Shown piece after piece: positions 1-46,583 of a DNA stretch of 46,583 nucleotides. The stretch's first letter is position 1, and each line of letters begins with the position of its first letter. Made by a program: the position numbers and the translations under genes. Origin of the DNA: a virus; IMG/VR virus record IMGVR_UViG_3300041955_000110, positions 1 through 46,583 of that record; one strand, written 5' to 3'. A model generated the notes under the pieces. The model worked only from the letters and a program-made list of their open reading frames with translations. It did no database searches and was not told the DNA's origin.

Positions 1-42
1 ATCCGGCGCCACCATGCAATGCGCCGCACCCTGGAGGACTAG
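1..42 (+). CDS. 3' end of the small protein gene that begins at 46304 (partial)
   Basis: This reads in frame as the last 13 residues, ending in RTLED, plus TAG of the 65-residue protein encoded at 46304-46501. It is the same DNA as 46460-46501 if the genome closes into a circle. Confidence 0.6.
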   Translation: MRRHHAMRRTLED

Positions 43-146
43 AGCCATGAAGATCATTCAATTAGATACTGGCAAAGTTTTATGGGAAGGTGTGAACCTG
101 ATCCGCGCGAGCCTGAGCGGCGCGAGCCTGACCCGCGCGAGCCTGA
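1..146. repeat. Direct repeat, left copy (circular closure / duplicated 5' region)
   Basis: Bases 1-124 are identical to 46460-46583, and bases 1-146 are identical to 44798-44943. The repeat holds the last 14 codons and stop of a small upstream gene (1-42), the GGAGG ribosome site, the start of a pentapeptide-repeat gene and its first repeat units. The match between the two window ends suggests a circular or circularly permuted genome. The internal third copy makes that closure ambiguous. Confidence 0.95.
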
Positions 147-706
147 GCGGCGCGAGCCTGAGCGGCGCGAGCCTGAGCGGCGCGAGCCTGACCTACGCGA
201 ACCTGAGCGGCGCGAACCTGACCTACGCGGACCTGAGCGGCGCGAGCCTGAGCGGCGCGAGCCTGAGCGGCGCGGACCTGACCCGCGCGGACCTGACCTA
301 CGCGGACCTGACCCGCGCGAGCCTGAGCGGCGCGAACCTGACCTGCGCGGACCTGAGCGGCGCGAGCCTGACCTACGCGAACCTGAGCGGCGCGAGCCTG
401 AGCGGCGCGAACCTGAGCGGCGCGAGCCTGAGCGGCGCGAACCTGACCCGCGCGAGCCTGAGCGGCGCGAACCTGACCTACGCGAACCTAATAGTTGGCG
501 GTCAACGATCAGATGGCTATCGCTTTTTGCTGTTCAAAACTCTAGAAGGATTGCGCGTTAGTGCGGGCTGTCGCTATTTTTCAATATCCGATGCTAAAAA
601 GCATTGGAGAACTACACGCAAGGGGACACAGTTAGGCAAGGAAAGCCTTGCGCTTGTGGCTCACCTCATAGCCATGGCAAAGATCGCCGGATGGGAGATT
701 AGGTAA
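47..706 (+). CDS. Pentapeptide-repeat protein A (219 aa)
   Basis: The ATG at 47 has GGAGG at 33-37; an in-frame ATG at 14 has no ribosome site and lies in the preceding gene's tail. A leader of 20 residues (MKIIQLDTGKVLWEGVNLIR) is followed by 25 perfect pentapeptides A(S/N/D)L(S/T)x, residues 21-145. A C-terminal domain of about 70 residues then follows, with SDGYRF, VAGCRYF-like and HW signatures known from other phage pentapeptide proteins. Such repeats fold into a right-handed quadrilateral beta-helix in which A and L are buried and the variable residues are exposed. The cellular target is unknown. Some family members bind gyrase, but this one is not strongly acidic, so DNA mimicry is not supported. 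It shares leader and array type with the protein at 44844. Confidence 0.9.
   Translation: MKIIQLDTGKVLWEGVNLIRASLSGASLTRASLSGASLSGASLSGASLTYANLSGANLTYADLSGASLSGASLSGADLTRADLTYADLTRASLSGANLTCADLSGASLTYANLSGASLSGANLSGASLSGANLTRASLSGANLTYANLIVGGQRSDGYRFLLFKTLEGLRVSAGCRYFSISDAKKHWRTTRKGTQLGKESLALVAHLIAMAKIAGWEIR
107..481 (+). repeat. 25 tandem 15-bp pentapeptide units (array A)
   Basis: Every unit is GCG-(AGC/AAC/GAC)-CTG-(AGC/ACC)-(GGC/CGC/TAC/TGC). There is not a single synonymous change among the 25 units. The array keeps all six frames largely open, which produces long spurious ORFs. Confidence 0.95.
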
Positions 707-8778: not shown

Positions 8779-9924
8779 ATGGCAACTGAGCAGAGACCAG
8801 CACATTCGCCTCTTGGCGCATCTGGCGCAGAGAGGTGGATGAATTGCGCCGGCAGTGTAGCCCTGCTGCGTGAACTGAAGTTCGATAGCACAGATGATCC
8901 TGACTATCGAACTCTCGGCACTGCGGCGCATGAAGCCGCTTGCAAAGCGCTCATGGAACATCTAGAGCCTTGGGAACTCGTCGGGCAGACATTCGGCTAC
9001 CATGTCTTCGATCAGAATATGCACGATGCCGTGCTGATGTATGTCAACGAGTGCCGGCAGATCAAAGAGGAGTTTCCAGATGGTCGAGAGTTCATCGAGC
9101 ATAAGATCGATGCCCCCGAGTTTCATCACGAATTTTATGGTACTACGGATTGGGGATACCTCGTTGGCCGACGCCTTTTTGTACGAGATTACAAGCATGG
9201 CGAAGGGATCGCGGTCGATGTCGAATGGAACCCTCAAATTATGTATTACGCTTGGGGCCTCCTCCGAAACCTCCCGGACGTTGATCGAGTTTCACTTGGC
9301 ATCGTCCAGCCTAGAGCGTTTCATGGGGATGGCCCGATCCGAGTGTGGGAACTGGACGCTGATCAAATACGCGCGTGGGCCATTGACACCCTCAAACCTG
9401 CTATGGATCGCACCGAGCTTGACCATGATCTTAATGCAGGGAAGTGGTGCCGCTTCTGTCCCGCGAAATTGGTCTGTCCTCTCATGCAAAGTCTATTCGG
9501 CGCCGCCATGCAAACCGACCCGAAGCAAGCGGGAAGCCTTTCTGATGAAGCTCTTGGACGCAGCTACCAATATATTCCAGCGGTGAAGATGTTCATCAAA
9601 GCGATGGAAGAGGAGACCTTCCGCAGATTGAATTCTGGCCACACAGTCCCCTTCACGAAGCTCGTGCAGCAGAAGGCCAATCGAGTGTGGAAGGAGGGCG
9701 CAGTAACCCGCCTTGTCTCAGCGCTAGGCCAGGATGCCTATACGAAGCCAGAGATCAAGTCGCCGCCGCAGATTGAGGCATTGGGACAGGTAGGCAAGGA
9801 ACTTGCAAAGGAGCTTGCCTATAAGCCTGATGCAGGCTTCACTGTCGCCGGCCTGGACGATAAGCGACATGCCGTAATCGTGAAGACGGTGCAGGAGACT
9901 TTTGCCGGCGCTGCGTCGGCCTAA
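8779..9924 (+). CDS. DUF2800 family PD-(D/E)XK nuclease, Cas4/RecB-like (381 aa)
   Basis: ATG at 8779 after GGAGGG. The nuclease core shows D124 in GTTDWGYLV and D137-Y-K139 in VRDYKHG. A lone N-terminal cysteine (C23, NCAGS) and a C-terminal cluster C224-C227-C233 (WCRFCPAKLVC) are laid out like the iron-sulphur site of Cas4/AddB-type nucleases. DUF2800 proteins are usually found next to phage ssDNA-binding proteins and DNA polymerases, as here. The expected activity is DNA end processing in recombination or replication; its exact substrate is unknown. Confidence 0.88.
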   Translation: MATEQRPAHSPLGASGAERWMNCAGSVALLRELKFDSTDDPDYRTLGTAAHEAACKALMEHLEPWELVGQTFGYHVFDQNMHDAVLMYVNECRQIKEEFPDGREFIEHKIDAPEFHHEFYGTTDWGYLVGRRLFVRDYKHGEGIAVDVEWNPQIMYYAWGLLRNLPDVDRVSLGIVQPRAFHGDGPIRVWELDADQIRAWAIDTLKPAMDRTELDHDLNAGKWCRFCPAKLVCPLMQSLFGAAMQTDPKQAGSLSDEALGRSYQYIPAVKMFIKAMEEETFRRLNSGHTVPFTKLVQQKANRVWKEGAVTRLVSALGQDAYTKPEIKSPPQIEALGQVGKELAKELAYKPDAGFTVAGLDDKRHAVIVKTVQETFAGAASA

Positions 9925-10378: not shown

Positions 10379-11059
10379 ATGGCTGAGAATACGGAAGTCA
10401 GTGGCATCGTCCACATCATGATCCCTGTCGTCATCGGGGTCTGCAACCTCCACACTCCCAAGAAGTACGAAGGCAAAGGCGAGGAGAAGTACGGGGCGAC
10501 GTTCGTTATGCCCCCGGACCATCCAGACCTGAAGCCCATCAAGGATCGCATCGTCGCGTTGATCAAGGCCAAGTGGCCGACGCTCGACATCGGCGCCGCG
10601 ATCAAGGGTGGCAACCTCATGCTGCCGTACCAGACTGGCGAGCGCGCGGTTGCGAAGTATCTTGCGAACCTCGCCAAGAAGGGCAAGCAGCCGAATGATC
10701 GGCTGGACTGGCTCAAGGGCCAGATCGTGCTGAAGGCTTCGAGCAAATATCAGCCGCAGCTTTCGGTGATCCAGAACGGCAAAGTCTCGGCCGCGCTAGA
10801 AGGCGCCGCGATCACGGCATTCAAGGGCAAGTTCTTCACCGGGGCGGAAGCCTTGGTCGAACTCAACTTGAAAGCCTATGACGCAATCAATGATGGCTCG
10901 AAGCCGGGCATCACTGCCTATCTCTCGACCGTCGTTGTGACCGGCAAAGGCACCCGGCGTGGGGGTGGCGTCGATCCCTCGATTGCTTTCGCGTCCTATA
11001 AGGGCTCTGTAAGCAACGAGGACCCGACTGCCGGCATGGATGATGAAATTCCCTTCTGA
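10379..11059 (+). CDS. Single-stranded DNA-binding protein, Enc34/DUF2815 type (226 aa)
   Basis: ATG at 10379 with AAAGGAGAG upstream. An OB-fold-like body (residues about 8-200, with YGATFVMPPDHPDL and the KPGITAYLSTVVVTGKGTRRGGG segment) is typical of DUF2815 phage SSBs. The protein ends in an acidic tip, GMDDEIPF, the partner-binding tail of such proteins. It binds and protects single-stranded DNA during phage replication and would recruit polymerase or nuclease. It is followed by the DNA polymerase, after a hairpin. Confidence 0.88.
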   Translation: MAENTEVSGIVHIMIPVVIGVCNLHTPKKYEGKGEEKYGATFVMPPDHPDLKPIKDRIVALIKAKWPTLDIGAAIKGGNLMLPYQTGERAVAKYLANLAKKGKQPNDRLDWLKGQIVLKASSKYQPQLSVIQNGKVSAALEGAAITAFKGKFFTGAEALVELNLKAYDAINDGSKPGITAYLSTVVVTGKGTRRGGGVDPSIAFASYKGSVSNEDPTAGMDDEIPF

Positions 11060-14127: not shown

Positions 14128-14212
14128 ACGAGATCATTGTTACGCTACTTCCCCCAAAGGAATAGAAAGGGCTACTCGATGGCGCCGACGAAAACAGATA
14201 AAGACCGGCTGA
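14042..14212 (+). CDS. Overlapping small basic protein with two SPKG repeats (56 aa)
   Basis: ATG at 14042 with GAGGG ten bases upstream, in a different frame from the resolvase tail and the phosphoesterase start. The product holds two similar segments (YNKSPKGRERYQR and YATSPKGIERATR), a repeat style seen in small basic phage proteins. It overlaps both neighbours (86 and 34 bases). Confidence 0.45.
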   Translation: METKDTRYNKSPKGRERYQRDQGTPKRVERDHCYATSPKGIERATRWRRRKQIKTG

Positions 14213-15288
14213 GAGATGCCGAAGAAATCATTCGCCAGAAGCAGGCGCGGCTCACTCTGGTCGAGCGCGAGATCAAGCTTATTCAGCGTGACAATGATGC
14301 TGCTGCGAAGATACGCCGGGAAATTTATGATCTGAAAGAGACAACAGCCGAGCCTCCGGTTTGGATTAGTCGGCTCCGCGATCCTAAGTCTTCCGGCGTT
14401 CCCTGTGCGATCCTAAGCGATGTCCATATGGGCGAACGAGTTGATCGCAACCAAGTCGGCGGGGTTAACATCTTCAATCGCCCTGTCGGTAAGCGCCGAC
14501 TGCATTCCTGGGCGGAAGTCCTTCTCGACCTGTCCTACAATCACATGGTCAACACGGACTACCCCGGTCTCGTGCTCGCCTTCGGTGGCGACATGATCAC
14601 TGGCAATATCCACGACGAGCTTCGAGAGACCAATGATGGGCCAGTGCAGCTTGCCCTCCTCGAACTTCAGGAGCATTTGATTGCCGCGATCACCCTCCTT
14701 GCAGACAAGTTCGGCCGTGTCTTTCTTCCGTGCGTCGTCGGCAATCATGGCCGAGAGACGCTGAAGAAGCGAGCGAAGAACCGGGTCTATACGAGCTACG
14801 AGTGGAACCTCTATTGTCAACTCGAACTCTATTTCAAGAACGACAAACGGGTACAGTTCTTCATCCCGGAAGAGACTGATGCCTATTTCACTGTGCAGGG
14901 GCACCGCTATCTGCTCACGCATGGCGACGATCTGGGCGTCAAAGGCGGCGACGGCATCATCGGGGCTCTCGGGCCGATTGCCCGCGGTACCATGAAGGTG
15001 GGCAACCAGCAGAAGCAGATCGGCCGAGACTTCGACACGCTGCTCATTGGGCATTATCATACCTATCTGCCTCGCTCCGAGGCGGCGCATGTCATTGTCA
15101 ATGGCTGCGTCGTGGGCTACAACGAGTTCGCTCATATCACGCTGCGGGTTCCCTATAGCCGGCCGACGCAAGCGCTTTGGTTCACACATCCCCGGTATGG
15201 CGTCACTTGCCAATGGCCGATGTATCTCGACAAGCTGCCGCGGCCGAAGGCTACGGATTGGGTCACTTGGAACGATAGGAGGGACTGA
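14179..15288 (+). CDS. Calcineurin-like metallophosphoesterase (369 aa)
   Basis: ATG at 14179 with GAAAGGG upstream. An N-terminal coiled coil (residues 5-55) precedes a complete metallophosphoesterase site: D81-x-H83 (SDVHMGE), GGD138, GN189H190, H248 (THGDD) and GH292-x-H294. It probably acts as a DNA nuclease or phosphatase in DNA metabolism. The long insert between motifs and the coiled coil are typical of phage members. Confidence 0.9.
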   Translation: MAPTKTDKDRLRDAEEIIRQKQARLTLVEREIKLIQRDNDAAAKIRREIYDLKETTAEPPVWISRLRDPKSSGVPCAILSDVHMGERVDRNQVGGVNIFNRPVGKRRLHSWAEVLLDLSYNHMVNTDYPGLVLAFGGDMITGNIHDELRETNDGPVQLALLELQEHLIAAITLLADKFGRVFLPCVVGNHGRETLKKRAKNRVYTSYEWNLYCQLELYFKNDKRVQFFIPEETDAYFTVQGHRYLLTHGDDLGVKGGDGIIGALGPIARGTMKVGNQQKQIGRDFDTLLIGHYHTYLPRSEAAHVIVNGCVVGYNEFAHITLRVPYSRPTQALWFTHPRYGVTCQWPMYLDKLPRPKATDWVTWNDRRD

Positions 15289-16518: not shown

Positions 16519-19500
16519 TCATTTCTTCATCTGCTTCAGGATCGCGGCGCCTTGATCGGCTGTCCGTAAGACGCCGAAATAAAGCTGATCGATGAGTTGA
16601 CGTTTCTCATACGCTGCGACCTTCGGGTTCTGATCGATCCACCGGACCATCTTCAGTTGGTTAGAGAGAGATTTGTAGAGGCCATCGAGGGCTTCAAAGC
16701 GCTCATTCTCGCCACTCGCGGTTATCTCCTTAATGGCCTGGACGTTACCAGCATTCGCTTCGCCGTTCAAGGTGTCATGGTACGATTTCGCCTTGAAGTA
16801 GTCCGAGTAGAAATCCTCTACATTCTGGCTAGTGGCACCAGGATACCGCGCCACGAAGGCCCTCACGACTGGGACATCGGAGAGCTTCCATTCCGGCCGT
16901 TCGCCACTGCCCTGGACCCCTGCGGCCTCGTTTAGACCGCTCTTGCGGAGCCCATAATCAGCCGCCTGTAGGGCATATTCCCCAAGGTTGCCTGTCCAGG
17001 CCCGGATGTAATTGTCGATCAGGGCGGGGCTCGTAAGAGCATGCGCGACCCCTCCCATAAAGCCCCCACCCATAGCCGCCTTCTCCATCCCAGGGAAGGC
17101 CGACATCAGCCGGCCGACCGTCTTGGCGGTGTCAGAGGTGTAGGGGGTAAACTGGTACTCTGGGAGGAATTTCTCGGCGTAGCCAGGGATGAGGGTTCTG
17201 CCGGTGAAGGCATCCCGATTGTTCATCTGGCTCACGACGGGGCCGAAGGCGTTGGGAAGGAGGGTCTGACTGCCGGCCGCCGTCATAAGGCCTCCGATGA
17301 GCCCCTCCATCGCTTTCGGGTTATGCTGGTAGAACTGTTCAGCCAAGCGCTCTGGGATCGACCCGAAGACGACGCCGGCTTGGAAAGGCTTAGGCACCCG
17401 GAAGATGGTGCCATTGTTCACCATGAGCTTACCATCGATCACCCGGAATTGGTCCTGTGGCCGATCCGATTGGCCAGCGGTGATCTTCTGCATCTCGATC
17501 TGCGACGGCGCTTGCCAATGGTCTGTGGGGATGATCCAGAATGCATCTTTCTCCCAGGCCGGGAGCGCCTGATAGCGGCTATCGTCTTTGTTCATGGCCC
17601 AGAGAGCGAGCGACGGCAGCGTGATCGTTGCGCCGAGCATGGTGATTGTCTTGATCGGATTGGTGCCGAGAGCGCGCACGATGCGATCACTATCCTGGAG
17701 AGCGATGTTCGAGAAGGCGGCAATCGAATTCCAAGCATTCATCTTGGCGCCGATGCGTGCAGCATCGACGGCAGTGTTGCGGGAGACCCATCCTGCCTCG
17801 ATCAGTTGCCGTTTGCCAACGCTGTCAGTCTTGATTGCGTCTTTCAGATTGACGCCGGGCGCAAGCGCATATTCTCCTTTCGCCGGTAGCCCTGAAATCG
17901 GCGCCCCTTCTTCCGCTCCCAAATGTGCCGGAAGGTTTGGAGTGAACCGATTGTTCGAGAATTGACTGGCAGTGCTCTCACGAAGCTGCTGCCGCAGGGA
18001 ACGCTTGAATGCTCCCAGATGACTGGCAGAGGTGGCGATTTCGGTGCCAAGCTGGAGTGGATGAATGATGTAGCGGCTGATAGGCTGAAAGGGAAGTCCG
18101 AGCACTGCGCCGGCCTTCTGCAAATAGGACGCATTCGGATCAATGACGACATTCCAGCTTCGGGTAAAGAGCCCGGTCTGCCCTGTAAGGTCGCGGAGAT
18201 CGTTCTGGAGATAGTTGCGGTTCAAGGTCACGAATGACTGTTGACCGCCTCCAGCCTTGCGCCATTCCCAATACGACTTATCCTGCAGGAATGCGCTCAT
18301 CATTCCATCCGCCATATTGACTGGCGTAAAGACCCCCTTGGCTGTAGTGACGACTGCATAAATCAGATCACGGAACAGATGGCGCATCTGAAAGGCCGGA
18401 TCGAGCACGGCGCCGGCCCGAAGATAGGAAGCAAACTTGCTCATCGATTTGGTCATCCAAGTCGCCGTATCCTGGTCGAGCCCCTTCATCATCGAGGCCA
18501 GATCGTCACCGACGCGATAGGTGGTGCGGATGCCATTGCGATAGACGGAGATTGTATCTTTGCCGCCAAGCTGTGAGGCGCCGGCCAAGGCTTCGGTTAA
18601 ATCATCCATACCCTTCGGAGCCGCGAGGAGCTTCTGGGCGCCTTTCACATCGCCGGCCGGGAGAACTGTAGTGCCGATCTCTTTCTCCAGGGCACCGCCT
18701 TGCTCCAGCAGATTGATGAGCTTATTGCCAACTTCGTTCTTCGCAGCGAGCGCATGCAGAAGGTAAGTGTTCTTGACCACGCTCTCAACCGGATCGATGA
18801 TGCGGAGATCGGCGCCCTTGATGCTCTTGATCGGGTTCCAAGCCTGGAGATTGTTGCGGCCGATGCCGGCATGATCGAAGAAGTTGGGGTCTTCGAGAAC
18901 GCGATGGAAGGGCACATAGAGTTTGTTGGCCTCCAGCATTTGCCGGTAAGCCTTCTCGCTGAGAACCCCGCTGTCCCGCAGATAGGCGCTAAGATTGTTT
19001 TGATACTTGACCAAGTTCTCCATCACGGAACCGTACTTGCTGATGTATTGGCCATTGCCGAGATGCATCAGGATCGAAGTATCGAGGCCAGTATTGATGC
19101 CGCGCTTCTCCAGTTCGAGCGCGCGAGCAGCCACGACGAAATGTGTGAACCGCTCCAGATCGTCATTCACTGGCTTCAGGATCGTCTCCAAACTATCACC
19201 GATCTTGGCATAGGAGTGGAAACCAAATTGCTCGTTGCGAAGCCAGTTGTGTGCTTTGCCGGCCCAATCCGCAAAGAGGCGAAGCATCTTGTAGGGGTCT
19301 TCAGCCGCGAGCGACGGCTTGATTGCGGCGTCCTCAACCGCTTTGCGTGCTGGAGTGAACTTGTCCATGAAGTTGGTATAGAAGTCATTGAAGCTCCACC
19401 GCGGCGTCGGTGTGCTTTCGTTGCGGCTGATCTTCTCGCGCAGATAATCGTGTGCATCGGCCAAAGCAGGAGACTTATCCTCGATAGCTTTCCAAGGACG

Positions 19501-20979
19501 CGGCGGCTCCTCTCCGAAATGGGGCTCCCACCAGCGCGGAATATCTGGCGGCAACCCTCCACCACCTCCGATCCCTTTGAGCGAAGCAGGACCAGTCTTC
19601 GGAGCTTCTTCATGTGGAGGAACCCATTTGCCTTCCTTCATCGTCGGCAAAGTCTGGTTCACAATGTCCAGATAAGGATTGAGCTTCTTGCCGAATTGCT
19701 TGGTGAAGATCGGCATATCCTTCCTGATTTCAGGATTGGAGAGCCATGCACCGATAGCATCAGCCATCATCTCTTGAGGCTTCGCCTTATAGTCAGGATA
19801 TTTTTCTTTTAATTTTGGAGCCCAACGATTTTGAGCTTCTTGCATCTCCTCCCATAATTTCCCATCTAAATTCTTTTTTAGATCAATTGATGTTGAAAGA
19901 TAAGAACCTTTCCCTCCACCCAAAACAAACCAATCTAAAGCATGGCCGACCTCATGATAAAGAGTTTCAGACCGTCCTACTCCCACCCATTCTCGCATCT
20001 GATAGTCAGGATTATCAGATAAATAAACATGGGCCTCATGTCGTCCAGTAGAATAAAGAGTGGCATGAAAGGAAGGCCCTGCTTCTTTCCCTTCTTCTAT
20101 AGCTCGAAGAGAAGAAGCAGAAGGCCCGATCTGGAATTTGAAACCTGCCCGCCGCCCAAATTCTTCCAAATGAGAGCCAATCTCTCCTACCGCGGGGACA
20201 ACTTCTCCATTAGGAAGACGCCGAGTTGTAATGACATTCCGCGCTTCAGAAGTCCATCGCTCCCAATCTGGGATAGCTTGTTGTTGAGTAAGCCCAGAAT
20301 AATGTGTAGGAAGATCGGAGCCCTCTGAAAGCATCTCTTGCGCGAGCACAGGATTGTTGTGCATGTCGGTCGCCACTTCAGCCGGATGGATGCCATAGTC
20401 GTTCCAGAGGCGCCCTAGCTTGTCGAGCACCTGCGGAGGAAGGCGCGGCGTCCCATCCCTACTGGCTATGGCCAGGGTTGAATTGACAAACTCACGATCT
20501 CCAGGGATGCCTCCAACAGGGCGCTCGACCACACGCCCCATAAAAGCTCTGAGAGTTGTTGGCATATGCATACCAGTGAGAATGCCGGTGATCTGTCCTG
20601 CTTGATCAAGCTCATTAGCAGTCTTCTCGACATCCTGGGCGCGGGAAGTGGCGCCTGAGATAAAGCCGGCCGCGAGCCCTCCACCGGCCTGCAGGATATG
20701 ATTGACTGCATCGGCGCCCCAAGCTGCGGAGGAAGTGATCGTGTGAGGAACGGCACCGATGCCGAGAGGATAATGGCTCGTGAATTTCTCGACCGCAGCT
20801 TCGTTTTCGGGCGAGAAGCCCCACTCGGAGGGCTTACCGAAGTCTTTCATAGCCTGAGAGCCTGCAGCCTTCATGGCCTGATCGAGCGCTCGACCGAAGG
20901 CATCTCCATCCTTCAAGCGGTCGAGATACGCTTGAGGCACACCTCCCATATCGCTGAGATTGAGATCATCTTCAGCCAT
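16519..20979 (-). CDS. Giant internal virion (ejection) protein with a zincin domain (1486 aa)
   Basis: The ATG at 20979 overlaps the previous stop as TGATG, with GGAGGG upstream. Residues about 210-400 contain YHEVGHALD (HExxH at 342-346) and a downstream QEMMADAIGAW with a probable third ligand Glu at about 403. This is the pattern of ATLF-like gluzincin metallopeptidases. The segment KFASYLRAGAVLDPAFQMRHLFRD (about 860-885) resembles the large polyvalent-protein domain LPD38. Position after the nozzle and two smaller internal proteins fits the gp16-type protein that is ejected and spans the envelope. The zincin may process virion or host proteins on entry. The zincin-coding DNA is unusually AT-rich. 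Confidence 0.85.
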   Translation of the reverse strand: MAEDDLNLSDMGGVPQAYLDRLKDGDAFGRALDQAMKAAGSQAMKDFGKPSEWGFSPENEAAVEKFTSHYPLGIGAVPHTITSSAAWGADAVNHILQAGGGLAAGFISGATSRAQDVEKTANELDQAGQITGILTGMHMPTTLRAFMGRVVERPVGGIPGDREFVNSTLAIASRDGTPRLPPQVLDKLGRLWNDYGIHPAEVATDMHNNPVLAQEMLSEGSDLPTHYSGLTQQQAIPDWERWTSEARNVITTRRLPNGEVVPAVGEIGSHLEEFGRRAGFKFQIGPSASSLRAIEEGKEAGPSFHATLYSTGRHEAHVYLSDNPDYQMREWVGVGRSETLYHEVGHALDWFVLGGGKGSYLSTSIDLKKNLDGKLWEEMQEAQNRWAPKLKEKYPDYKAKPQEMMADAIGAWLSNPEIRKDMPIFTKQFGKKLNPYLDIVNQTLPTMKEGKWVPPHEEAPKTGPASLKGIGGGGGLPPDIPRWWEPHFGEEPPRPWKAIEDKSPALADAHDYLREKISRNESTPTPRWSFNDFYTNFMDKFTPARKAVEDAAIKPSLAAEDPYKMLRLFADWAGKAHNWLRNEQFGFHSYAKIGDSLETILKPVNDDLERFTHFVVAARALELEKRGINTGLDTSILMHLGNGQYISKYGSVMENLVKYQNNLSAYLRDSGVLSEKAYRQMLEANKLYVPFHRVLEDPNFFDHAGIGRNNLQAWNPIKSIKGADLRIIDPVESVVKNTYLLHALAAKNEVGNKLINLLEQGGALEKEIGTTVLPAGDVKGAQKLLAAPKGMDDLTEALAGASQLGGKDTISVYRNGIRTTYRVGDDLASMMKGLDQDTATWMTKSMSKFASYLRAGAVLDPAFQMRHLFRDLIYAVVTTAKGVFTPVNMADGMMSAFLQDKSYWEWRKAGGGQQSFVTLNRNYLQNDLRDLTGQTGLFTRSWNVVIDPNASYLQKAGAVLGLPFQPISRYIIHPLQLGTEIATSASHLGAFKRSLRQQLRESTASQFSNNRFTPNLPAHLGAEEGAPISGLPAKGEYALAPGVNLKDAIKTDSVGKRQLIEAGWVSRNTAVDAARIGAKMNAWNSIAAFSNIALQDSDRIVRALGTNPIKTITMLGATITLPSLALWAMNKDDSRYQALPAWEKDAFWIIPTDHWQAPSQIEMQKITAGQSDRPQDQFRVIDGKLMVNNGTIFRVPKPFQAGVVFGSIPERLAEQFYQHNPKAMEGLIGGLMTAAGSQTLLPNAFGPVVSQMNNRDAFTGRTLIPGYAEKFLPEYQFTPYTSDTAKTVGRLMSAFPGMEKAAMGGGFMGGVAHALTSPALIDNYIRAWTGNLGEYALQAADYGLRKSGLNEAAGVQGSGERPEWKLSDVPVVRAFVARYPGATSQNVEDFYSDYFKAKSYHDTLNGEANAGNVQAIKEITASGENERFEALDGLYKSLSNQLKMVRWIDQNPKVAAYEKRQLIDQLYFGVLRTADQGAAILKQMKK
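19790..20340. other. AT-rich segment covering the zincin domain
   Basis: Within an otherwise GC-rich gene, I counted 42 G or C in the 120 bases 19801-19920 (35%). Codon choice shifts to A/T-ending codons through about 20330. The segment coincides with the HEVGH domain, suggesting a domain gained from another genome. Confidence 0.6.
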
Positions 20980-22514
20980 CACTTCCCTCCAGGTCCATAC
21001 TGCGGGGCCCCGGTTAATCCCGTAGCGAAGCTATTGATCGATTGATCCATCGAAGTGAGGAAGGGCGCATAGAATTTCGGGTTGCCGATGTAGTCAGGCT
21101 TATTGGGATTGAACAGATCGGCCGGGTTCTTGCCAGGAGTGTTGCGGTATTCCTCCTCTGCCTGATGCACAGCATAGAGAAACTTGGCATAGTTCAAGTG
21201 CCCGGTCTGATCGAGATGGCCCATCATCGGGTTCGAGTGATCGATCAACGGCATCACACCTTTCACGGCTTCACCCCTTAGCCGGCTCAACTTTGTATCG
21301 CCCATCTGCGGATCAAAAATCCAATTGCGAAGTTCATTAAAGTCCGCATTGGTCAAACCTCCAGCTTCTCCAGGTTCCTTCGTCCGCGCCTTCATAAGAT
21401 CATCGATGGTCACGCTCTTTGGGTCCTGAATGATCTTGGTGCCGAGATCAGCAAATGTCGTCCGAGAAACTTTGGCCTCTGTCTCAGGCTTATTTTCCCG
21501 TTCGACAAGCGCATGCAAATTCTCTTTGCCTCGCCAGTCGCCGGCAAGTGCAGGATCATGCATCGCTTCTCGCAGATTGAAATTCTTCGGATCATCGAAG
21601 GCGGCAGTGATATGCTTATCCATCGCAGCATCACGCTGCTCCTGCCGAGCTTCCTTCTGCTGTTGCGCTTCCCATCTGGCATCGGCACGCGCAGCCCGCA
21701 ATTCGCTTGCTGCCACTTTGGCCAGGGTTTGCACTTCAGCACCCTTGATGTAGTCGGGATATTTGGCCGAGTATGCCTGAGCAGTCGCTTCAGGATCGCT
21801 CGATTGCTGGATGGCTCCAATGGCAGCAGCTTTAACATAACCCTCCTTCATCTTTTGCGGGAGCGTTATGCTGGCGGTCGCTAAGGCTTCTCCTTTCAGA
21901 TTAGGATAGGACGCTAGAATTGCTTTGGTTTGCTCATCAACGCTTCGCAGCAGGAAAGGCAGAGAACCTGGATCACGCATAAGGGTATTCGACCCTCGAT
22001 TAGATAACGTATCTAAATCAACTTCCGCCCCTTTTGCGGCGAGCCGGCCTAAACCATCTGCGGCCTTAGCTTGGAATTGATTGGTAAGTGCTTCCACACG
22101 ACGCTGAGCCCATTCTACTCCCCGTTCAGTCGTAAACCCTTTAGAGAATTTGTCCATCGTCTCTTGAAAAGGGCCTTGCATAAAGCGAGCTGCGACAGTG
22201 TGATCATGTGGGTCCGCGTTTTCAAGAGTGGTGTCTAGGGCATGGGATAATGTATCATAAGCGGTAGCCTCCGCTGCGACACCGCGGCTGAGTTCCTTAT
22301 GATACATGCTGTCTTCAACAGCTTGCCCCAGATCGCGGACCCCTCCACCGATCTCTCGCCCGGCCTGTGCTCCAGTGCGCTCGATGCTGGAACCGAGTTC
22401 TGTATAGATACGGTTGACCCGATTGGCCGCTTGTGACGTAGCTTCTATGCCGCGCTCATCAGGCCGTATCGTGCCCAGAGACGGATCATAAGTCGGGATA
22501 TTCCCTTGTGCCAT
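20979..22514 (-). CDS. Internal virion protein, gp15-like position (511 aa)
   Basis: The ATG at 22514 directly follows the previous stop (TAACATG), with GGGGA upstream; an earlier TTG is less likely. The sequence is almost wholly helical and charged, with no membrane segment and few Cys, and has a long coiled-coil part (ASELRAARADARWEAQQQ, residues about 275-295). It lies between a small Gly/Ala-rich protein and the giant zincin protein. That matches the gp14-gp15-gp16 order of ejection proteins in T7-like phages. Confidence 0.75.
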   Translation of the reverse strand: MAQGNIPTYDPSLGTIRPDERGIEATSQAANRVNRIYTELGSSIERTGAQAGREIGGGVRDLGQAVEDSMYHKELSRGVAAEATAYDTLSHALDTTLENADPHDHTVAARFMQGPFQETMDKFSKGFTTERGVEWAQRRVEALTNQFQAKAADGLGRLAAKGAEVDLDTLSNRGSNTLMRDPGSLPFLLRSVDEQTKAILASYPNLKGEALATASITLPQKMKEGYVKAAAIGAIQQSSDPEATAQAYSAKYPDYIKGAEVQTLAKVAASELRAARADARWEAQQQKEARQEQRDAAMDKHITAAFDDPKNFNLREAMHDPALAGDWRGKENLHALVERENKPETEAKVSRTTFADLGTKIIQDPKSVTIDDLMKARTKEPGEAGGLTNADFNELRNWIFDPQMGDTKLSRLRGEAVKGVMPLIDHSNPMMGHLDQTGHLNYAKFLYAVHQAEEEYRNTPGKNPADLFNPNKPDYIGNPKFYAPFLTSMDQSINSFATGLTGAPQYGPGGK

Positions 22515-36604: not shown

Positions 36605-38385
36605 CCAACCCCCATGTTCATCGTCCTAGCGCCCTGCGGTGGACCCATCATTCCAGGAGGACCTTGCTGCCCTTCAGGCGGAATGCCGGGCTCATTCTTC
36701 TTCACGACTGCCTGGGCCTTGAGCATCGCCGCCTGCGCCGGCAGCGCCTTGATCTGCTGATCCTGCGCCTGCGCCTGCGCGCGGTTCTTCCGCTTTGCAG
36801 TGATCATATCCGCCGTAGCCATCCAACTCGGCACGACACCTTGTATCTCGGCAATCGCCGGGATCGCAGTATCGAAATCGAACGGATCAAGCAATGAAGC
36901 ATCGCCGGTGATATTGACCAACTCCTTCACACTCTCAACCGTGCGGATGAAGCCAGCAGCTTCCTGTGCCCGCATAGCACGCGAGATCGGACCTGTATAG
37001 ACAACATGATGCCGGAAGTGGCCCTGTGCTTCGATCATCTCAGGCGGCATCTGCTCCAATAGCCCAAGCTGCATCAAGAGATCATATTCACGGGCAATCA
37101 TAGGGCCAAGATACTCGGAAGTCTGGCGGCCGACTGTCGGGGCCAGAAGGATGCCTTTCTCGTTGGTGCGCTCAATCACCTCCGTCGCCGTCATCTGCGG
37201 CGTCTCTTGCATGATCTGGAAAAGCTGGACAAGGAAGGCATCCCAGATGATGCCCTTCTCCATATCCATCATCTTCTCGTTGATGGCGATCTGGCCAGAG
37301 GGGAGAACACCGACGAGCGGCTTCCCATCGAGCGACATATAGCCTTTATTCATTGAGCCCGGCCGCAGATTGAAATCCCCGAGCCCATCGTCCGCAGTCA
37401 AGAGGATCGGATCGGCCGCGCGGTGTCCCTGCTTCAAGAAGGTTGTCTTCTGTGCATTGATGGTCTTCAGCGTCGGTAGCACCATGCACGCGGGACCGCG
37501 CCCATAGACTTCATTCGGCGCCTGAATGTAGCGCGACACTGGCATCGGGAAAGTATTGTAGCCCCCCTCTTCGAGCAGATAAGGCCCGAGCAGGAAGATG
37601 TAATAGGAGAACCAAGGCTTCCCCATCGCATCGATGCGGCGAGGATCGTAATCGAGCCGAGGCCCGACACGCTGAATAAACTCGAAGAGAGTTTGACTGT
37701 GCTGCTCCGCAGCCGCCTTCAAAGGCTCAGGGACTTTGCCCTTGAACTTCGTCATCGCCTGTTCGCCGGTCAAGCGAAAGTAACGGATGTAACTATCGAC
37801 TACGCCCTGGTGATTTTCCTTGATGAAAATCTCTCCGAGCGGGGGCGCCTTATACCGGAGCCCACGGATGCCAATGTGGCTATCGAGGGCATCGATGAAC
37901 ATTCCTCCGGTGCCATAGCAGCCGAGGTTGTGATAGACCATCTGGTTCTGACTGGCGAAGTTGGCCGTGTCGGCATAGCGATGCTTGAAGAGTGCATGCG
38001 TGGCATTCTCATACCAGAGCTTCACGCGCCGCTTCTTCATCAGATACTTGTTGTCAGCCTCCAGCCCATGCCAGAACATATTGCGAGGCGTCAGCAGGCT
38101 ATCCAAAATCGCCTTGAACTTATCGAGTGCAAGTTGACCATTGCTGTCAATTTGCCGCTCTTGCTTCTTCTGGCCGGGATAGTTGTAATTGCCGGGATAG
38201 AAAGTGTTCTTCGCATTGGTGTCGAGAATTTGCGCGATCTCTTCCCACATGCCGGCATGCGTCGAGCGCCAAGTCTGTGCCTGTCGCCAATCCGCCAAGC
38301 TCTCGGTGAGTATCTTTTTGGTACGTTCGTCTTGGACTGACGTTGCAGTGTCAGACACCATTTTCAACACTACAGCGTCAACCAT
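36601..38385 (-). CDS. Portal / head-to-tail connector protein (594 aa)
   Basis: The N-terminal half (WEEIAQILDTNAKNTF, then DSNGQLALDKFKAILDSLLTPRNMFWHGL) and YGTGGMFID are characteristic of the T7 gp8-like connector family. The middle has ETPQMTATEVIERTNEKG, another constant feature. The C-terminus is Gln/Ala/Pro-rich. It forms the ring through which DNA is packaged and released. AGGACAG lies before the ATG. Confidence 0.92.
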   Translation of the reverse strand: MVDAVVLKMVSDTATSVQDERTKKILTESLADWRQAQTWRSTHAGMWEEIAQILDTNAKNTFYPGNYNYPGQKKQERQIDSNGQLALDKFKAILDSLLTPRNMFWHGLEADNKYLMKKRRVKLWYENATHALFKHRYADTANFASQNQMVYHNLGCYGTGGMFIDALDSHIGIRGLRYKAPPLGEIFIKENHQGVVDSYIRYFRLTGEQAMTKFKGKVPEPLKAAAEQHSQTLFEFIQRVGPRLDYDPRRIDAMGKPWFSYYIFLLGPYLLEEGGYNTFPMPVSRYIQAPNEVYGRGPACMVLPTLKTINAQKTTFLKQGHRAADPILLTADDGLGDFNLRPGSMNKGYMSLDGKPLVGVLPSGQIAINEKMMDMEKGIIWDAFLVQLFQIMQETPQMTATEVIERTNEKGILLAPTVGRQTSEYLGPMIAREYDLLMQLGLLEQMPPEMIEAQGHFRHHVVYTGPISRAMRAQEAAGFIRTVESVKELVNITGDASLLDPFDFDTAIPAIAEIQGVVPSWMATADMITAKRKNRAQAQAQDQQIKALPAQAAMLKAQAVVKKNEPGIPPEGQQGPPGMMGPPQGARTMNMGVG

Positions 38386-38386
38386 G

Positions 38387-38578
38387 TTACTGTCCTAATC
38401 CAAGCATCGCCGCGGCCGATCCCGCCTGTGGATTGGTCAGCGCTTGTGCGGCCTTCTGTTTCCGCTTCTTCAGTTCTGCCTGAAGTTGCTCATTGAGTTG
38501 GTCGCCCATCCCACCAAGCCCGAGATCGGTCGAAGCCACTCCAGTCAATCCGTAGCCTCCTGAATTCATTGACGCCAT
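38387..38578 (-). CDS. Small Gly-rich protein (63 aa)
   Basis: It ends one base before the portal start. Gly-rich N-terminus (GGYGLTGVASTDLGLGG), then a basic helix (LNEQLQAELKKRKQKAAQ). No family recognised. Confidence 0.6.
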   Translation of the reverse strand: MASMNSGGYGLTGVASTDLGLGGMGDQLNEQLQAELKKRKQKAAQALTNPQAGSAAAMLGLGQ

Positions 38579-38580
38579 AC

Positions 38581-38871
38581 TTATCTCCTATACTGCGGGC
38601 ACCCCAAGCCCTGCCCTACCCGATTTCGTACCGCAAGATCAGGAGCCAGATGGTTGGCAGCATATCGCGGGCTCTTCGGGTTCTGCGACGAATATCGGAT
38701 TGGACCAACAAGTGCATCGCACACAGGTTCAATCCTTCCAATCTTGGTCCCAGGGGTCGCGCACCCCGTTAGGGTGCCAGCGGCTACGCTTAGGATGATG
38801 AGCGTTATGAACAACGGTGTCCACGCGCTGTCGGAGTTGAGCCTGTTGTAGAGCATTGCGATGTGCTTCAT
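38581..38871 (-). CDS. Outer-membrane spanin lipoprotein, Rz1-like (96 aa)
   Basis: ATG at 38871 with GGGAG seven bases upstream. A hydrophobic signal (PLFITLIILSVAAGTLTGC) ends in a lipobox LTG|C. The mature part of about 60 residues would hang from the outer membrane. The gene overlaps the inner-membrane spanin frame by 143 bases, the classic overlapping Rz/Rz1 layout. The spanin pair fuses the two membranes at lysis. Confidence 0.72.
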   Translation of the reverse strand: MKHIAMLYNRLNSDSAWTPLFITLIILSVAAGTLTGCATPGTKIGRIEPVCDALVGPIRYSSQNPKSPRYAANHLAPDLAVRNRVGQGLGCPQYRR

Positions 38872-39061
38872 TCTTTGCTCCCACGATATAGGCAACCATC
38901 GTTGCTAAGATGGTTGCCGCTAGGAATGCCAAAATCACTTTCGCCTTCAGCGAAGGTATAAGCCAAATCCCAACTCCGCACAAGAGGATCAATCCCGTAG
39001 CGACCCCAAGATGCGTAATAAACGAGCCTAACCCAAGAGACCAAAGATAAAGCGCCGTCAC
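38729..39061 (-). CDS. Inner-membrane spanin, Rz-like (110 aa)
   Basis: The GTG at 39061 overlaps the previous TGA (GTGA). Two hydrophobic stretches (ATGLILLCGVGIWLIP and VILAFLAATILATMVAYIVG) precede a charged periplasmic-type helix (KNEAHRNALQQAQLRQRVDTV). The overlapping downstream lipoprotein in another frame supports a spanin role. Having two hydrophobic stretches rather than one is unusual. Confidence 0.65.
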   Translation of the reverse strand: MTALYLWSLGLGSFITHLGVATGLILLCGVGIWLIPSLKAKVILAFLAATILATMVAYIVGAKNEAHRNALQQAQLRQRVDTVVHNAHHPKRSRWHPNGVRDPWDQDWKD

Positions 39062-39483
39062 AGTTCGTCGCCTTTCTCCAGCCGATGCTTCTCCTTCAAC
39101 TGCTCGATCTGCTTTGCCTCTTCCGAAGAAGCAATACATTCCGGTTGCTGCACTTCGACCTGGGAGCCATACTGCGCGTGCATGGCCCACATCCCCGGCA
39201 CCGCGACTGACCGGACGAACTCAGGGCTATTCAAGAGAACCTCGCAATCCTCTTTTGTCTTGAATTCGTTGGCTTGGTCATTCGGCCGAAATTCCCAGAT
39301 AACCACAGGTTGATCTTTGATCGTCCCAACAATACGGACAATGTAAGTGTCCTCTGCGCCTTCTGCTACCGAATTGAAAACCCAGACCAGCGCAATAAAC
39401 GCCGCGACCACCGCCAAGATGATCAGGACCGGAGCATACCACGGATCACGAGTGTCGTATTCAAAGCCATCATCATAGCGCAT
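39058..39483 (-). CDS. Membrane protein in the lysis cassette (141 aa)
   Basis: One transmembrane helix (about residues 17-38, PVLIILAVVAAFIALVWVFNSV) follows an acidic, tyrosine-rich start. The C-terminal half is soluble with two Cys and ends in a charged helix. It lies between lysozyme and spanins. It may be a lysis modulator; no family recognised. Confidence 0.65.
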   Translation of the reverse strand: MRYDDGFEYDTRDPWYAPVLIILAVVAAFIALVWVFNSVAEGAEDTYIVRIVGTIKDQPVVIWEFRPNDQANEFKTKEDCEVLLNSPEFVRSVAVPGMWAMHAQYGSQVEVQQPECIASSEEAKQIEQLKEKHRLEKGDEL

Positions 39484-39485
39484 GA

Positions 39486-39992
39486 TTACTTCTCCTCCAG
39501 ACAGAGTTTACGTTCAGCGGCTCGACGGTTAGAAAGACCTTTCAGAACTCGACCACCAGCATGGTTGTAGGCAAGAAAGTCATTGCAGGCGGCTTGCACT
39601 CGACCGGCATTGAGATCAACTACGATCCGCGACTTGCAGACTGCAGCGCCGCCGATGTTATAAGAGAGACTGATGAGCGCGACATGCCGCGGGATCGGCA
39701 ATGAATTGAAGACTTCCGGCTTGATGCAGCGCTGAAGCGGAGCATCATACTTCGGCAGATCGGTCTTCAGCATTTGCAGGCATTGCGCCTTGGTGTAGGT
39801 CTTGCTGAAGTCCGCATGATCCGCGGCCGTCTGCCCATAGCAGATTGTCTCGACCCCGACGCTATCCCGATAGGGGTGACTGAAGTATCCCTCCCAAGGT
39901 GAAATGAACAAGACTGCTGCCGTCGCCAAAGCCGCCGACATGCCGGCGTATTTGCCGCGATTGTTCGAGACGTGATCGACAACTGTGCTCAT
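39486..39992 (-). CDS. Signal-anchor endolysin, T4-type lysozyme GH24 (168 aa)
   Basis: Catalytic triad E34-D43-T49 is present in WEGYFSHPYRDSVGVETICYG. The N-terminal hydrophobic segment AGMSAALATAAVLFISPW, rich in Ala, Gly and Ser, is typical of a signal-anchor-release domain. The enzyme would then reach the periplasm through the host Sec system and stay inactive until released. It cleaves peptidoglycan. ATGA overlap with the holin candidate. Confidence 0.88.
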   Translation of the reverse strand: MSTVVDHVSNNRGKYAGMSAALATAAVLFISPWEGYFSHPYRDSVGVETICYGQTAADHADFSKTYTKAQCLQMLKTDLPKYDAPLQRCIKPEVFNSLPIPRHVALISLSYNIGGAAVCKSRIVVDLNAGRVQAACNDFLAYNHAGGRVLKGLSNRRAAERKLCLEEK

Positions 39993-40213
39993 TCAGGAAC
40001 ATCCTTCTGCTTGACCAGGGAGCAAAAGAAAACTGCCAGAGAGAAGCCGATACAGAGCAAGGCGAAGTGAGCAGGAGAAAAATGGTTCTGGAAAGCCGGC
40101 AGCGCGCAATAGAGCCCAGAGATAATTGCCCCTAGAAGCGCGATCCGCATGCTCCACATACGATGGATGAAGCGCGCATCGCGCGTCAATCGATTGGCGA
40201 TCCAATCATGCAC
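39989..40213 (-). CDS. Holin / pinholin candidate (about 74 aa)
   Basis: Two hydrophobic segments (MRIALLGAIISGLYCALPAF and FALLCIGFSLAVFFCSLV) follow a short start (VHDWIANRLTRDARFIHRMW). The VHDW start and the position directly before the endolysin fit a two-helix holin. The start is uncertain: GTG at 40213 overlaps the previous stop, and ATG at 40159 is also possible. Confidence 0.65.
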   Translation of the reverse strand: MHDWIANRLTRDARFIHRMWSMRIALLGAIISGLYCALPAFQNHFSPAHFALLCIGFSLAVFFCSLVKQKDVPE

Positions 40214-40427
40214 TTTTGGACACCACAGGCACCGGCTGTGCAGCCACAACTTTCTTCGCAGCTTCGAGAGCAGCAGCGTCGGCTTCTGCCTTGGCGACGA
40301 GCGCCTTCGCAGCCGCGACCGCTTTCGTCGCGGAGTGTGCTTTGAGTGCCGCTACTGCAACCGGAATGAAATGCCGGACTACGAAGCCGGCGACGAATGC
40401 GACTACGCTGGCGAAGGTCGTGAACAT
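40206..40427 (-). CDS. Membrane-anchored Ala-rich protein (73 aa)
   Basis: GGAGGG before the ATG at 40427. One hydrophobic segment (ASVVAFVAGFVVRHFIPVAVAAL) is followed by an Ala/Lys/Glu helix (KAVAAAKALVAKAEADAAALEAAKK). It may be a lysis-accessory or second holin-type protein. Confidence 0.6.
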   Translation of the reverse strand: MFTTFASVVAFVAGFVVRHFIPVAVAALKAHSATKAVAAAKALVAKAEADAAALEAAKKVVAAQPVPVVSKSA

Positions 40428-40717
40428 TATTTACCCTCCAAAATGTTTTCGAGTTCTTTCTCAGCCGCCTCTTCACCTCGTTCGAGCGCTGCCTTGATCC
40501 GCTGCGCCAGAGTTGGTTTAGCTACAGGGGCCGGAGCAGGAACCGGAGTGGGCGCAGGAACCGGAGCGGGTACAGGAACCGGAGCGGGTACAGGAACCGG
40601 AGCGGGTACAGGAGCCGGAGCGGGTGCAGGAGTTTCAGATGAAAACTTCGGATTGGGTTCAGGCTTATGCCGTTCCGCATGATCCCACCCTGTCTCGGTT
40701 TTGACTGCTGTTGCCAT
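40427..40717 (-). CDS. Pro/Ala/Val-repeat protein (96 aa)
   Basis: GGAGGAG lies upstream. A charged start of 28 residues precedes about 38 residues of PAPVPV-type repeats, which form an extended rod. A helix (LAQRIKAALERGEEAAEKELENILEG) follows. No membrane segment. The rod could act as a spacer; function unknown. Confidence 0.65.
   Translation of the reverse strand: MATAVKTETGWDHAERHKPEPNPKFSSETPAPAPAPVPAPVPVPAPVPVPAPVPAPTPVPAPAPVAKPTLAQRIKAALERGEEAAEKELENILEGK
40538..40627. repeat. Five tandem 18-bp repeats
   Basis: On the plus strand the unit is AGGAACCGGAGCGGGTAC, with a few substitutions in the first and last copies. It encodes the Pro/Ala/Val rod, and its copy number could vary between isolates. 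Confidence 0.85.
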
Positions 40718-42607: not shown

Positions 42608-42608
42608 T

Positions 42609-44797: not shown

Positions 44798-44943
44798 ATC
44801 CGGCGCCACCATGCAATGCGCCGCACCCTGGAGGACTAGAGCCATGAAGATCATTCAATTAGATACTGGCAAAGTTTTATGGGAAGGTGTGAACCTGATC
44901 CGCGCGAGCCTGAGCGGCGCGAGCCTGACCCGCGCGAGCCTGA
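44798..44943 (+). repeat. Internal copy of the 146-bp direct repeat
   Basis: Identical to bases 1-146. The first 42 bases are the orphaned end of the small gene found whole at 46304-46501, here without its body. This copy is therefore the one that moved, carrying the ribosome site and start of the pentapeptide gene. Confidence 0.9.
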
Positions 44944-45884
44944 CCTACGCGAGCCTGACCCGCGCGAACCTGACCCGCGCGGACCTGAGCGGCGCGGACC
45001 TGACCCGCGCGAGCCTGAGCGGCGCGAACCTGACCTGCGCGGACCTGACCTGCGCGGACCTGACCTACGCGGACCTGACCCGCGCGAGCCTGACCCGCGC
45101 GAACCTGACCCGCGCGAGCCTGAGCGGCGCGAACCTGTACGGCGCGGACCTGACCCACGCGAACCTGACCGACGCGAACCTGTACGGCGCGGACCTGACC
45201 TACGCGAGCCTGAGCGGCGCGAACCTGTACGGCGCGGACCTGAGCGGCGCGAACCTGACCCGCGCGAACCTGACCTACGCGGACCTGACCCGCGCGAGCC
45301 TGAGCGGCGCGAGCCTGTACGGCGCGGACCTGAGCGGCGCGAGCCTGACCTACGCGAACCTGAGCGGCGCGAGCCTGAGCGGCGCGAACCTGAGCGGCGC
45401 GGACCTGAGCGGCGCGAACCTGACCCGCGCGAACCTGACCGACGCGAACCTGACCTACGCGAACCTGACCTACGCGGACCTGACCCGCGCGAGCCTGAGC
45501 GGCGCGAACCTGACCTACGCGAGCCTGAGCGGCGCGAACCTGACCCGCGCGAACCTGAGCGGCGCGCAGGGTTTAGCTTATCAAATCCCACAAGAGGGTG
45601 CCTTGATTTGCTGGAAAAAATTAGAAGGTGGAATTATCGCCAAAGTTCAAATCCCTGCTAAGGCAAAGCGTACCGCCTCTATTGTCGGCCGCAAATGCCG
45701 CGCGGAGTATGTGAAGGTTTTGGAAGTTATCGGCGCTGAGATAGGCATATCACAGCATGATGGTGCAACGGAATATCGCCAAGGCAAGATTGTGCGTCCT
45801 GATAGCTATGACCCTGATCCCCGCGTTGAATGTTCGCATGGTATCCACTTCTTTTTGACGCGGGAGGAAGCGGAAGCTTATTGA
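44844..45884 (+). CDS. Pentapeptide-repeat protein B with DUF5758-like C-terminal domain (346 aa)
   Basis: ATG at 44844 with GGAGG upstream, as in protein A. The same 20-residue leader is followed by 44 perfect pentapeptides (residues 21-240). The C-terminal domain (ALICWKKLEGGIIAKVQIPAKAKRTASIVGRKCRAEYVKVLEV, then IVRPDSYDPDPRVECSHGIHFFLTREEA) matches DUF5758, often joined to pentapeptide repeats in phages. It differs entirely from the C-terminus of protein A. The long beta-helix would be a rod of about 11 coils. Target unknown. Confidence 0.9.
   Translation: MKIIQLDTGKVLWEGVNLIRASLSGASLTRASLTYASLTRANLTRADLSGADLTRASLSGANLTCADLTCADLTYADLTRASLTRANLTRASLSGANLYGADLTHANLTDANLYGADLTYASLSGANLYGADLSGANLTRANLTYADLTRASLSGASLYGADLSGASLTYANLSGASLSGANLSGADLSGANLTRANLTDANLTYANLTYADLTRASLSGANLTYASLSGANLTRANLSGAQGLAYQIPQEGALICWKKLEGGIIAKVQIPAKAKRTASIVGRKCRAEYVKVLEVIGAEIGISQHDGATEYRQGKIVRPDSYDPDPRVECSHGIHFFLTREEAEAY
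44904..45563 (+). repeat. 44 tandem 15-bp pentapeptide units (array B)
   Basis: Units are GCG-(AGC/AAC/GAC)-CTG-(AGC/ACC/TAC)-(GGC/CGC/TAC/TGC/CAC/GAC). As in array A there are no synonymous changes. Compared with A, unit types YG, TH and TD are new. Confidence 0.95.
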
Positions 45885-46118: not shown

Positions 46119-46307
46119 ATGCCTAAATTCAGCAAGAGACATTACGAGGCGCTTGCGCTTGCAATCCAGTCTATCCCTGATAAGAATGGGAGAGAATGGG
46201 CGCGGCTTGCAATCGCTTCTACACTGGCCCGCGACAATGATCGTTTTGATAAAGAGCGATTTTCGCGCGCATGTTTGCCCGGCGCTAATGTGAGGGCGCG
46301 GACATGA
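46119..46307 (+). CDS. Small hypothetical protein (62 aa)
   Basis: CTGGAG upstream. The pattern KFSKRHYEALALAIQSI, then RLAIASTLARDNDRFDKERFSRAC, is that of a short, common phage helical protein of unknown role. ATGA overlap with the next gene. Confidence 0.7.
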   Translation: MPKFSKRHYEALALAIQSIPDKNGREWARLAIASTLARDNDRFDKERFSRACLPGANVRART

Positions 46308-46501
46308 GAACGCAACGCAAAGCGGCAAGCCCATATCAAAAATATGGAAAGACGCCGCACCGCTATTCGGCCGCTTATTACGCTTGGCGCCGCGAGACAT
46401 TGAAAGCCAATGGTTTGCGCGAAAGCCAAGCGGCGGCCGAAGCTGAGCGTGCATCTGCAATCCGGCGCCACCATGCAATGCGCCGCACCCTGGAGGACTA
46501 G
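46304..46501 (+). CDS. Small basic helical protein (65 aa)
   Basis: ATGA start. Basic and aromatic (PYQKYGKTPHRYSAAYYAWRR), ending in RRHHAMRRTLED. Its last 14 codons are the DNA found again at 44798-44839 and at 1-42, and contain the ribosome site of the pentapeptide gene that follows. Confidence 0.7.
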   Translation: MRTQRKAASPYQKYGKTPHRYSAAYYAWRRETLKANGLRESQAAAEAERASAIRRHHAMRRTLED

Positions 46502-46583
46502 AGCCATGAAGATCATTCAATTAGATACTGGCAAAGTTTTATGGGAAGGTGTGAACCTGATCCGCGCGAGCCTGAGCGGCGCG
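46460..46583. repeat. Terminal direct repeat, right copy
   Basis: Identical to bases 1-124. Probably the assembly overlap of a circular map; true terminal redundancy cannot be excluded. Confidence 0.95.
46506..46583 (+). CDS. 5' end of pentapeptide-repeat gene (partial)
   Basis: Same DNA as 47-124; the gene would continue at base 125 if the map is circular. Equally, the sequence matches the start of the gene at 44844, so the true continuation is not proven. Confidence 0.75.
   Translation, partial: MKIIQLDTGKVLWEGVNLIRASLSGA

Follow-up and report, generated by a model that had tools for sequence, protein, structure and literature searches.

Frozen buried codons and reshuffled surface words in phage pentapeptide-repeat arrays: probable homogenisation by recombination with diversifying selection on exposed residues

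Pentapeptide-repeat proteins are common in phages and usually annotated merely as repeats, and we know of no role for them. In the pentapeptide fold, Ala and Leu point inward, and positions 2, 4 and 5 face outward. The viral record analysed here (46,583 nucleotides in full, termed the window) carries two pentapeptide genes, each with a tandem array of 15-bp units whose DNA differs at the outward-facing positions alone. These arrays raise the question of which process keeps the codons of the buried residues identical while several residues persist at the exposed positions. The first-pass annotation had considered the arrays to be either newly expanded or constantly homogenised, with a few unit types reshuffled by recombination. 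We compared both arrays with phage and cellular homologues; the coordinates of the relevant features are collected in Table 1.

Table 1. Positions of the pentapeptide genes, their parts and associated features in the window
Feature	Position	Strand	Details
Gene 1, pentapeptide-repeat protein, 219 aa	47..706	+	Open frame, GGAGG upstream; PF00805 E 1.4e-46
Array 1, 25 frozen 15-bp units	107..481	+	Codon-by-codon reading
Edge unit and C-terminal domain of gene 1	482..706	+	..RSDGY..AGCR.F.. type, without Pfam name
Gene 2, pentapeptide-repeat protein, 346 aa	44844..45884	+	PF00805 E 4.8e-91
Array 2, 44 frozen 15-bp units	44904..45563	+	Codon-by-codon reading
DUF5758 domain, C-terminus of gene 2	45564..45884	+	PF19062 E 1.1e-20
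Leader copy A	1..146	+	46 bp upstream (preceding ORF tail, ribosome-binding site) plus 100 bp at the start of gene 1
Leader copy B	44798..44943	+	146 bp, exact copy of 1-146
ORF upstream of gene 1	46304..46501	+	Last codons fall within leader
80-bp block in array 1	345..424	+	Exact match to array 2; includes five whole units
80-bp block, copy in array 2	45322..45401	+	Exact match to 345..424
Contig terminal repeat	46460..46583 (= 1-124)	+	124 bp
Exonuclease, possible recombination machinery	8779..9924	+	phrog_69 E 6e-77
Gp2.5-like ssDNA-binding/annealing protein, possible recombination machinery	10379..11059	+	phrog_112 E 2e-15
Second exonuclease	14137..15288	+	phrog_284 E 2.7e-40

The two ends of the record are identical over the terminal repeat, so the record reads as a circle, in which gene 2 sits ~1.2 kb upstream of gene 1. 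The presence of head-tail connector, terminase, DNA polymerase and helicase families indicates a podovirus-like tailed phage. Genes 1 and 2 share the plus strand with the replication genes and lie ahead of the helicase (5621) and the DNA polymerase (11154). In such phages this position is usually held by early host-takeover genes, and by analogy both genes probably belong to the early region. Elsewhere, the window encodes a minus-strand protein of 1487 aa with an LPD38 domain (16519-20982), probably a large virion-associated protein, and contains a tandem repeat of 5.3 copies of 18 bp (CAGGAACCGGAGCGGGTA; 40537-40631). The same repeat is present in L009 (IMGVR_UViG_3300014638_000092), the only near-identical contig, with 100% identity over 7714 bp (window 37207-44920).

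Both products match PF00805 at 156 and 298 bits, respectively (cut-off 20.2), and differ in their C-terminal domains. The DUF5758 end of gene 2 (74 bits, cut-off 26.9) is absent from gene 1 and has 107 IMG/VR relatives; the C-terminal domain of gene 1 has four, at 49-73% identity. A relative of the latter domain, in L132 (3605-4189), follows an NAxV-type repeat similar to left-handed hexapeptide helices, an arrangement that would fit a swap of the head domain between solenoid kinds. The two genes begin with the same leader, whose identity ends sharply on both sides. At gene 1 the leader holds the in-frame end of the preceding ORF, whereas the leader of gene 2 is not continuous with an upstream ORF; gene 2 therefore probably acquired its copy from gene 1. 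The arrays themselves appear to have exchanged sequence, as they share an exact 80-bp block, and their longest common run of units exceeds that of shuffled arrays (p ~0.007).

Reading the arrays codon by codon, we found GCG at codon 1 and CTG at codon 3 in 69/69 units, and AGC, AAC or GAC at codon 2 throughout. Codons 4-5 comprise exactly seven words (AGCGGC, ACCCGC, ACCTAC, ACCTGC, ACCCAC, ACCGAC and TACGGC), which encode SG, TR, TY, TC, TH, TD and YG, respectively. Every amino acid has a single codon and synonymous differences are absent from the 69 units, all as first described. For array 2 the codon agreement is 1.000 (0/225 off), whereas 300 resamples drawn from the genome's codon usage average 0.41 and reach 0.48 at most. 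Deviant units occur solely at the array edges: both arrays are preceded by GTG AAC CTG ATC CGC, and array 1 is followed by a degenerate 26th unit, GCG AAC CTA ATA GTT (482-496), whose CTA is the only synonymous deviant.

The same freezing characterises phage homologues as a class. Five successive units of the form GCG-RRC-CTG-NNC-NNC occur in at least 119 IMG/VR stretches, and each array with this code has its own few surface words. A second, protein-ascertained sample was gathered through the C-terminal domains, which avoids selection by codon. Its 78 phage arrays, the two of the window included, have a median codon-freeze index of 0.94, and 75 of them exceed every resample of local codon usage. 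By contrast, for similar arrays from the genomes of bacteria and archaea the median is 0.589, near the background of 0.509 (Mann-Whitney p 2e-16), and the fourfold sites are close to saturation. The frozen exceptions in cellular genomes are mostly matches that reach the DUF5758 end (L234, L241, L242, L259, L300 and L310); some adjoin phage genes, namely ERF and YqaJ at L310 and an integrase at L300, and L276, likewise frozen, adjoins RecT. As a separate observation, phage annealing or recombinase genes are found at most a few kb away from the frozen pentapeptide genes of L310, L276 and L224 (Arf and Erf at the last).

Synonymous identity within arrays thus far exceeds what codon usage gives, and related arrays use array-specific codons, the two marks of concerted evolution. 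These results bear out constant homogenisation: synonymous noise is missing from the phage arrays and present in the cellular ones, and synonymous variation at normal rates, when checked for in the relatives, was not general. The unchanging core holds for the 69 window units but not as a rule, given the occasional CTG->ATG and Ala->Thr units in relatives. The idea of recent expansion fared worse, as neither array contains internal duplicated blocks. A simple, recent tandem duplication should show as an excess of recurring blocks or of identical adjacent units over shuffled arrays, but arrays 1 and 2 have neither, and a long internal repeat (p<0.05) was found in only 13 of 60 sampled arrays. 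A lag-4 signal, expected for a four-unit period of one helix turn, is also absent from the arrays. Arrays 1 and 2 look well mixed rather than freshly duplicated.

Comparison of close relatives supports the proposed shuffling: near-identical flanks enclose arrays of differing unit order and number, nearly always without synonymous change. Five pairs with similar flanks and scrambled arrays (L018/L022, L058/L059, L042/L082, L015/L088 and L197/L199) have 0 synonymous against 12-24 nonsynonymous codon differences over aligned units; the sixth pair, L045/L100, has 3 against 14. In L011/L046, identical over 800 bases of one flank, four codons differ in four units, and apart from the edge unit each change yields a word used elsewhere in the array, even where two base changes are needed (TTC->AGC); these changes look templated. 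Among Salmonella phages, ST104, Oslo and L differ at 1-3 of 345 bases in the gene ends, but their arrays vary in unit order and count 20, 16 and 13 units, respectively; the 49 units contain 0 synonymous differences. A search for the ST104 gene in complete E. coli genomes, intended as a long-read control, returned zero matches. Phages L and ST64T share >99.9% identity over 40 kb and differ by 16 bp at two sites, one of which is a 15-bp deletion that removes one pentapeptide unit (PMC8022706). Identical arrays in related phages are not general, yet nine pairs of loci with identical flanks did have identical arrays, although some of these represent a single contig entered as two loci (e.g. L039/L177, L097/L160 and L122/L182). 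Such cases, which include several pairs of near-identical metagenome contigs, imply that the shuffling is neither instantaneous nor very fast.

Recombination of this kind could act without positive selection. Tandem repeats in general undergo neutral concerted evolution, in which slippage and unequal exchange would homogenise the units, the Ala and Leu residues would be constrained and the surface residues merely free; the array-specific frozen codes are well accounted for in this way. However, the fourfold sites of the same units, at least as free as the surface sites, vary ~3.6-fold less: averaged over 73 arrays, bases 1-2 of codons 2, 4 and 5 have a heterozygosity of 0.29, compared to 0.077 for the third positions of the Ala and Leu codons. 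Surface variation exceeds fourfold variation in 69 of the 73, and fourfold variation is zero in 41. As the bases of one 15-bp unit largely share their history, this surface excess argues for diversifying selection. In cluster E mycobacteriophages, whose array is unfrozen, pN/pS still reaches 3.06 in the array, against 0.90 in the C-terminus (four genomes, few synonymous changes) and 0-0.28 in those neighbouring genes that have synonymous differences, a ratio suggestive of diversifying selection. Moreover, where near-identical relatives differ by apparently templated changes, every such change is nonsynonymous. Purely neutral turnover is therefore unlikely, and diversifying selection may well act on the exposed residues of the window phage itself. 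The cluster E pentapeptide gene (L138-L141) adjoins the immunity repressor, and its neighbours are near-identical.

Structure prediction for gene 1 yielded a regular repeat solenoid with one strand per five residues (pLDDT 86-98 over residues 21-140); the model of gene 2 is weaker, with a mean pLDDT of 58.5. The predicted fold is a right-handed quadrilateral β-helix. Foldseek matched the predicted rod to 2j8k, HetL and MfpA, and the closest folds are NP275-NP276 and designed pentapeptide solenoids, followed by HetL, MfpA and Qnr. Together with the sequence and fold matches to QnrB1, MfpA, AlbG and HetL, this likeness might indicate a DNA mimic or a gyrase-binding protein of the Qnr/MfpA type, in which unit turnover only alters the length of the rod. 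Such matches come from any regular pentapeptide rod, however, and the best are those to NP275-NP276 and the designed solenoids. In addition, true mimics are strongly acidic, whereas the window arrays carry 0.00 and -0.02 charges per unit, with a median of -0.10 in the sample. The strongly acidic, DNA-like surface of Qnr and MfpA is thus lacking at a net charge per unit of ~0, and this electrical neutrality speaks against DNA mimicry, leaving the gyrase-related reading rather improbable.

Most of the array data come from short-read assemblies, in which 15-bp repeats might be collapsed or scrambled. The leader and array do break such assemblies: both ends of the window contig fall in the shared leader. 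L009 likewise breaks off within it, and no variant of the window's own arrays was seen. The unit order in the window could therefore be partly wrong through assembly. The 116 records of Rheinheimera barba phage isolates include many length variants in 15-bp steps with identical flanks, and between 4A and 12A a 15-bp deletion within shared codons creates a chimeric unit (ADLSG ANLRG to ADLRG); as these isolates were assembled from 125-bp reads (PMC6715854), this set, the chimera included, serves as supporting evidence only. Some of the records break within the array. Several deposited barba genomes have their first or last base within the pentapeptide gene, or 1-bp indels in it, which suggests assembly trouble. 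Nevertheless, misassembly can neither erase synonymous variants nor create phage-specific codes, and the pattern also occurs in cultured phages (ST104, Oslo, L and KcrB) and in prophages of sequenced bacteria, making an assembly artefact a very improbable source of it.

Codon optimisation, or an mRNA or DNA constraint fixing GCG, CTG and NNC, would be in line with the window codons, which all end in G or C in the arrays, unlike the mixed codons in the rest of genes 1 and 2. That mixture in the same genes already argues against such a constraint. Across arrays, fourteen Ala/Leu codon pairs are frozen: GCC/CTG in 16, GCG/CTG in 12, GCC/TTG and GCA/CTC in 7 each, and ten others, such as GCG/CTT and GCT/CTG. 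Since the frozen pair differs from phage to phage, these array-specific codes refute optimisation as a general cause, and we regard it as scarcely credible for the window.

The surface words themselves retain a trace of how the units have been exchanged. Codons 4 and 5 are tightly linked, with a mutual information reached by 0/400 shuffles in either array; codon 2 has no significant linkage to codon 4 or 5 of the same unit. Linkage is also strongest between codons 4 and 5 across 72 arrays (median z of 2.25, compared to 0.52 and 0.07). In the unit, the invariant CTG separates codons 2 and 4 and the invariant GCG separates codon 5 from the next codon 2, whereas nothing lies between codons 4 and 5. 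Exchange that breaks within the identical codons would give precisely this pattern. Structural exclusion was considered as a source of the words and rejected: SR, SY and TG, absent here, are found in other arrays, which points to history, not structure, as the source of the linkage. Targeted mutagenesis of the diversity-generating-retroelement type would suit the NNC form of all variable codons, as adenine mutagenesis of AAC in an A-rich template would produce it, but is hardly conceivable here, given that neither a reverse transcriptase (RVT_1) nor a template repeat was found in the 46.6-kb record, that adenine mutagenesis should yield many more than three residues at codon 2 and seven linked words at codons 4-5, and that unit number also varies in relatives.

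Altogether, we favour the reading that these pentapeptide rods are homogenised and shuffled by recombination while their exposed residues are under diversifying selection, to which we assign a probability of roughly two in three. It draws on four patterns visible in the sequences themselves, namely the freezing, the array-specific codes, the scrambling among relatives and the excess variation at surface sites. Genes 1 and 2 would each encode an early-region quadrilateral β-helix rod that carries a C-terminal domain. The 15-bp units would recombine often and in phase, both inside each array and from one array to the other, by unequal exchange, deletion and gene conversion. Such concerted evolution would hold the Ala and Leu codons of an array uniform and put its limited set of surface words into new orders. 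With the breakpoints located in the unvarying GCG and CTG, codon 2 would be freed, and the adjacent codons 4-5 would move together. Diversifying selection on the exposed residues would retain several surface words despite homogenisation. We infer this recombination route from sequence; its most plausible form is short-homology annealing during phage replication, in view of the two exonucleases and the Gp2.5-like protein encoded here and of ERF, RecT and YqaJ near some homologues.

The rods might serve as a fast-changing binding surface against a host or competitor component encountered early in infection. In lambdoid phages the pentapeptide gene lies in the early operon, adjoining ral, sieB and kil, and by analogy this position suggests a role in host takeover, exclusion or counter-defence. 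More broadly, and tentatively, such rods may be a retroelement-free diversity generator of phages at large, in which the phage's own annealing and exonuclease proteins would use short homologies to re-sort a limited set of surface words time and again on a fixed scaffold, and so track changing host or competitor targets. Homogenised and reshuffled arrays that differ in this respect from their cellular homologues and vary at the exposed residues would mark arms-race proteins and natural combinatorial binding rods, and the arrays would constitute an evolutionary record of the surface words in use. This leads to a testable prediction, that unit order changes under passage in a target-dependent manner. 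A practical consequence is that pentapeptide loci break or scramble in short-read assemblies. The protein family is known and the one-unit difference between L and ST64T has been mentioned in passing; the general pattern of phage-wide freezing, reshuffling and surface diversification was not reported in the published open-access papers searched.

The window proteins share features with several known systems. With the PF00805 proteins NP275-NP276, HetL, MfpA and Qnr they have in common the A(N/D)LXX unit and the predicted quadrilateral β-helix; however, cellular-genome arrays of this family show normal synonymous noise, whereas the unit DNA of the window is frozen and reshuffled. Closer counterparts are orf19 of ST104, orf232 of phages L and ST64T, and gp46 of Oslo, which likewise hold a frozen array between a fixed N- and C-terminus and differ by one unit or by unit order between near-identical phages. 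Compared to the window, these are single genes with a GCC/CTG/NGT code and other end domains, instead of two genes with a shared leader. Diversity-generating retroelements resemble the arrays in the NNC pattern and in limiting variation to chosen surface codons, but the window has no reverse transcriptase or template and a small, linked vocabulary, and its relatives vary in unit number. Tandem-repeat surface proteins, such as the ankyrin and TALE repeats, vary by unit recombination, and their framework evolves in concert around recognition positions that differ. In comparison, the window unit is far shorter (15 bp) and belongs to a putative phage early protein without a known target code.
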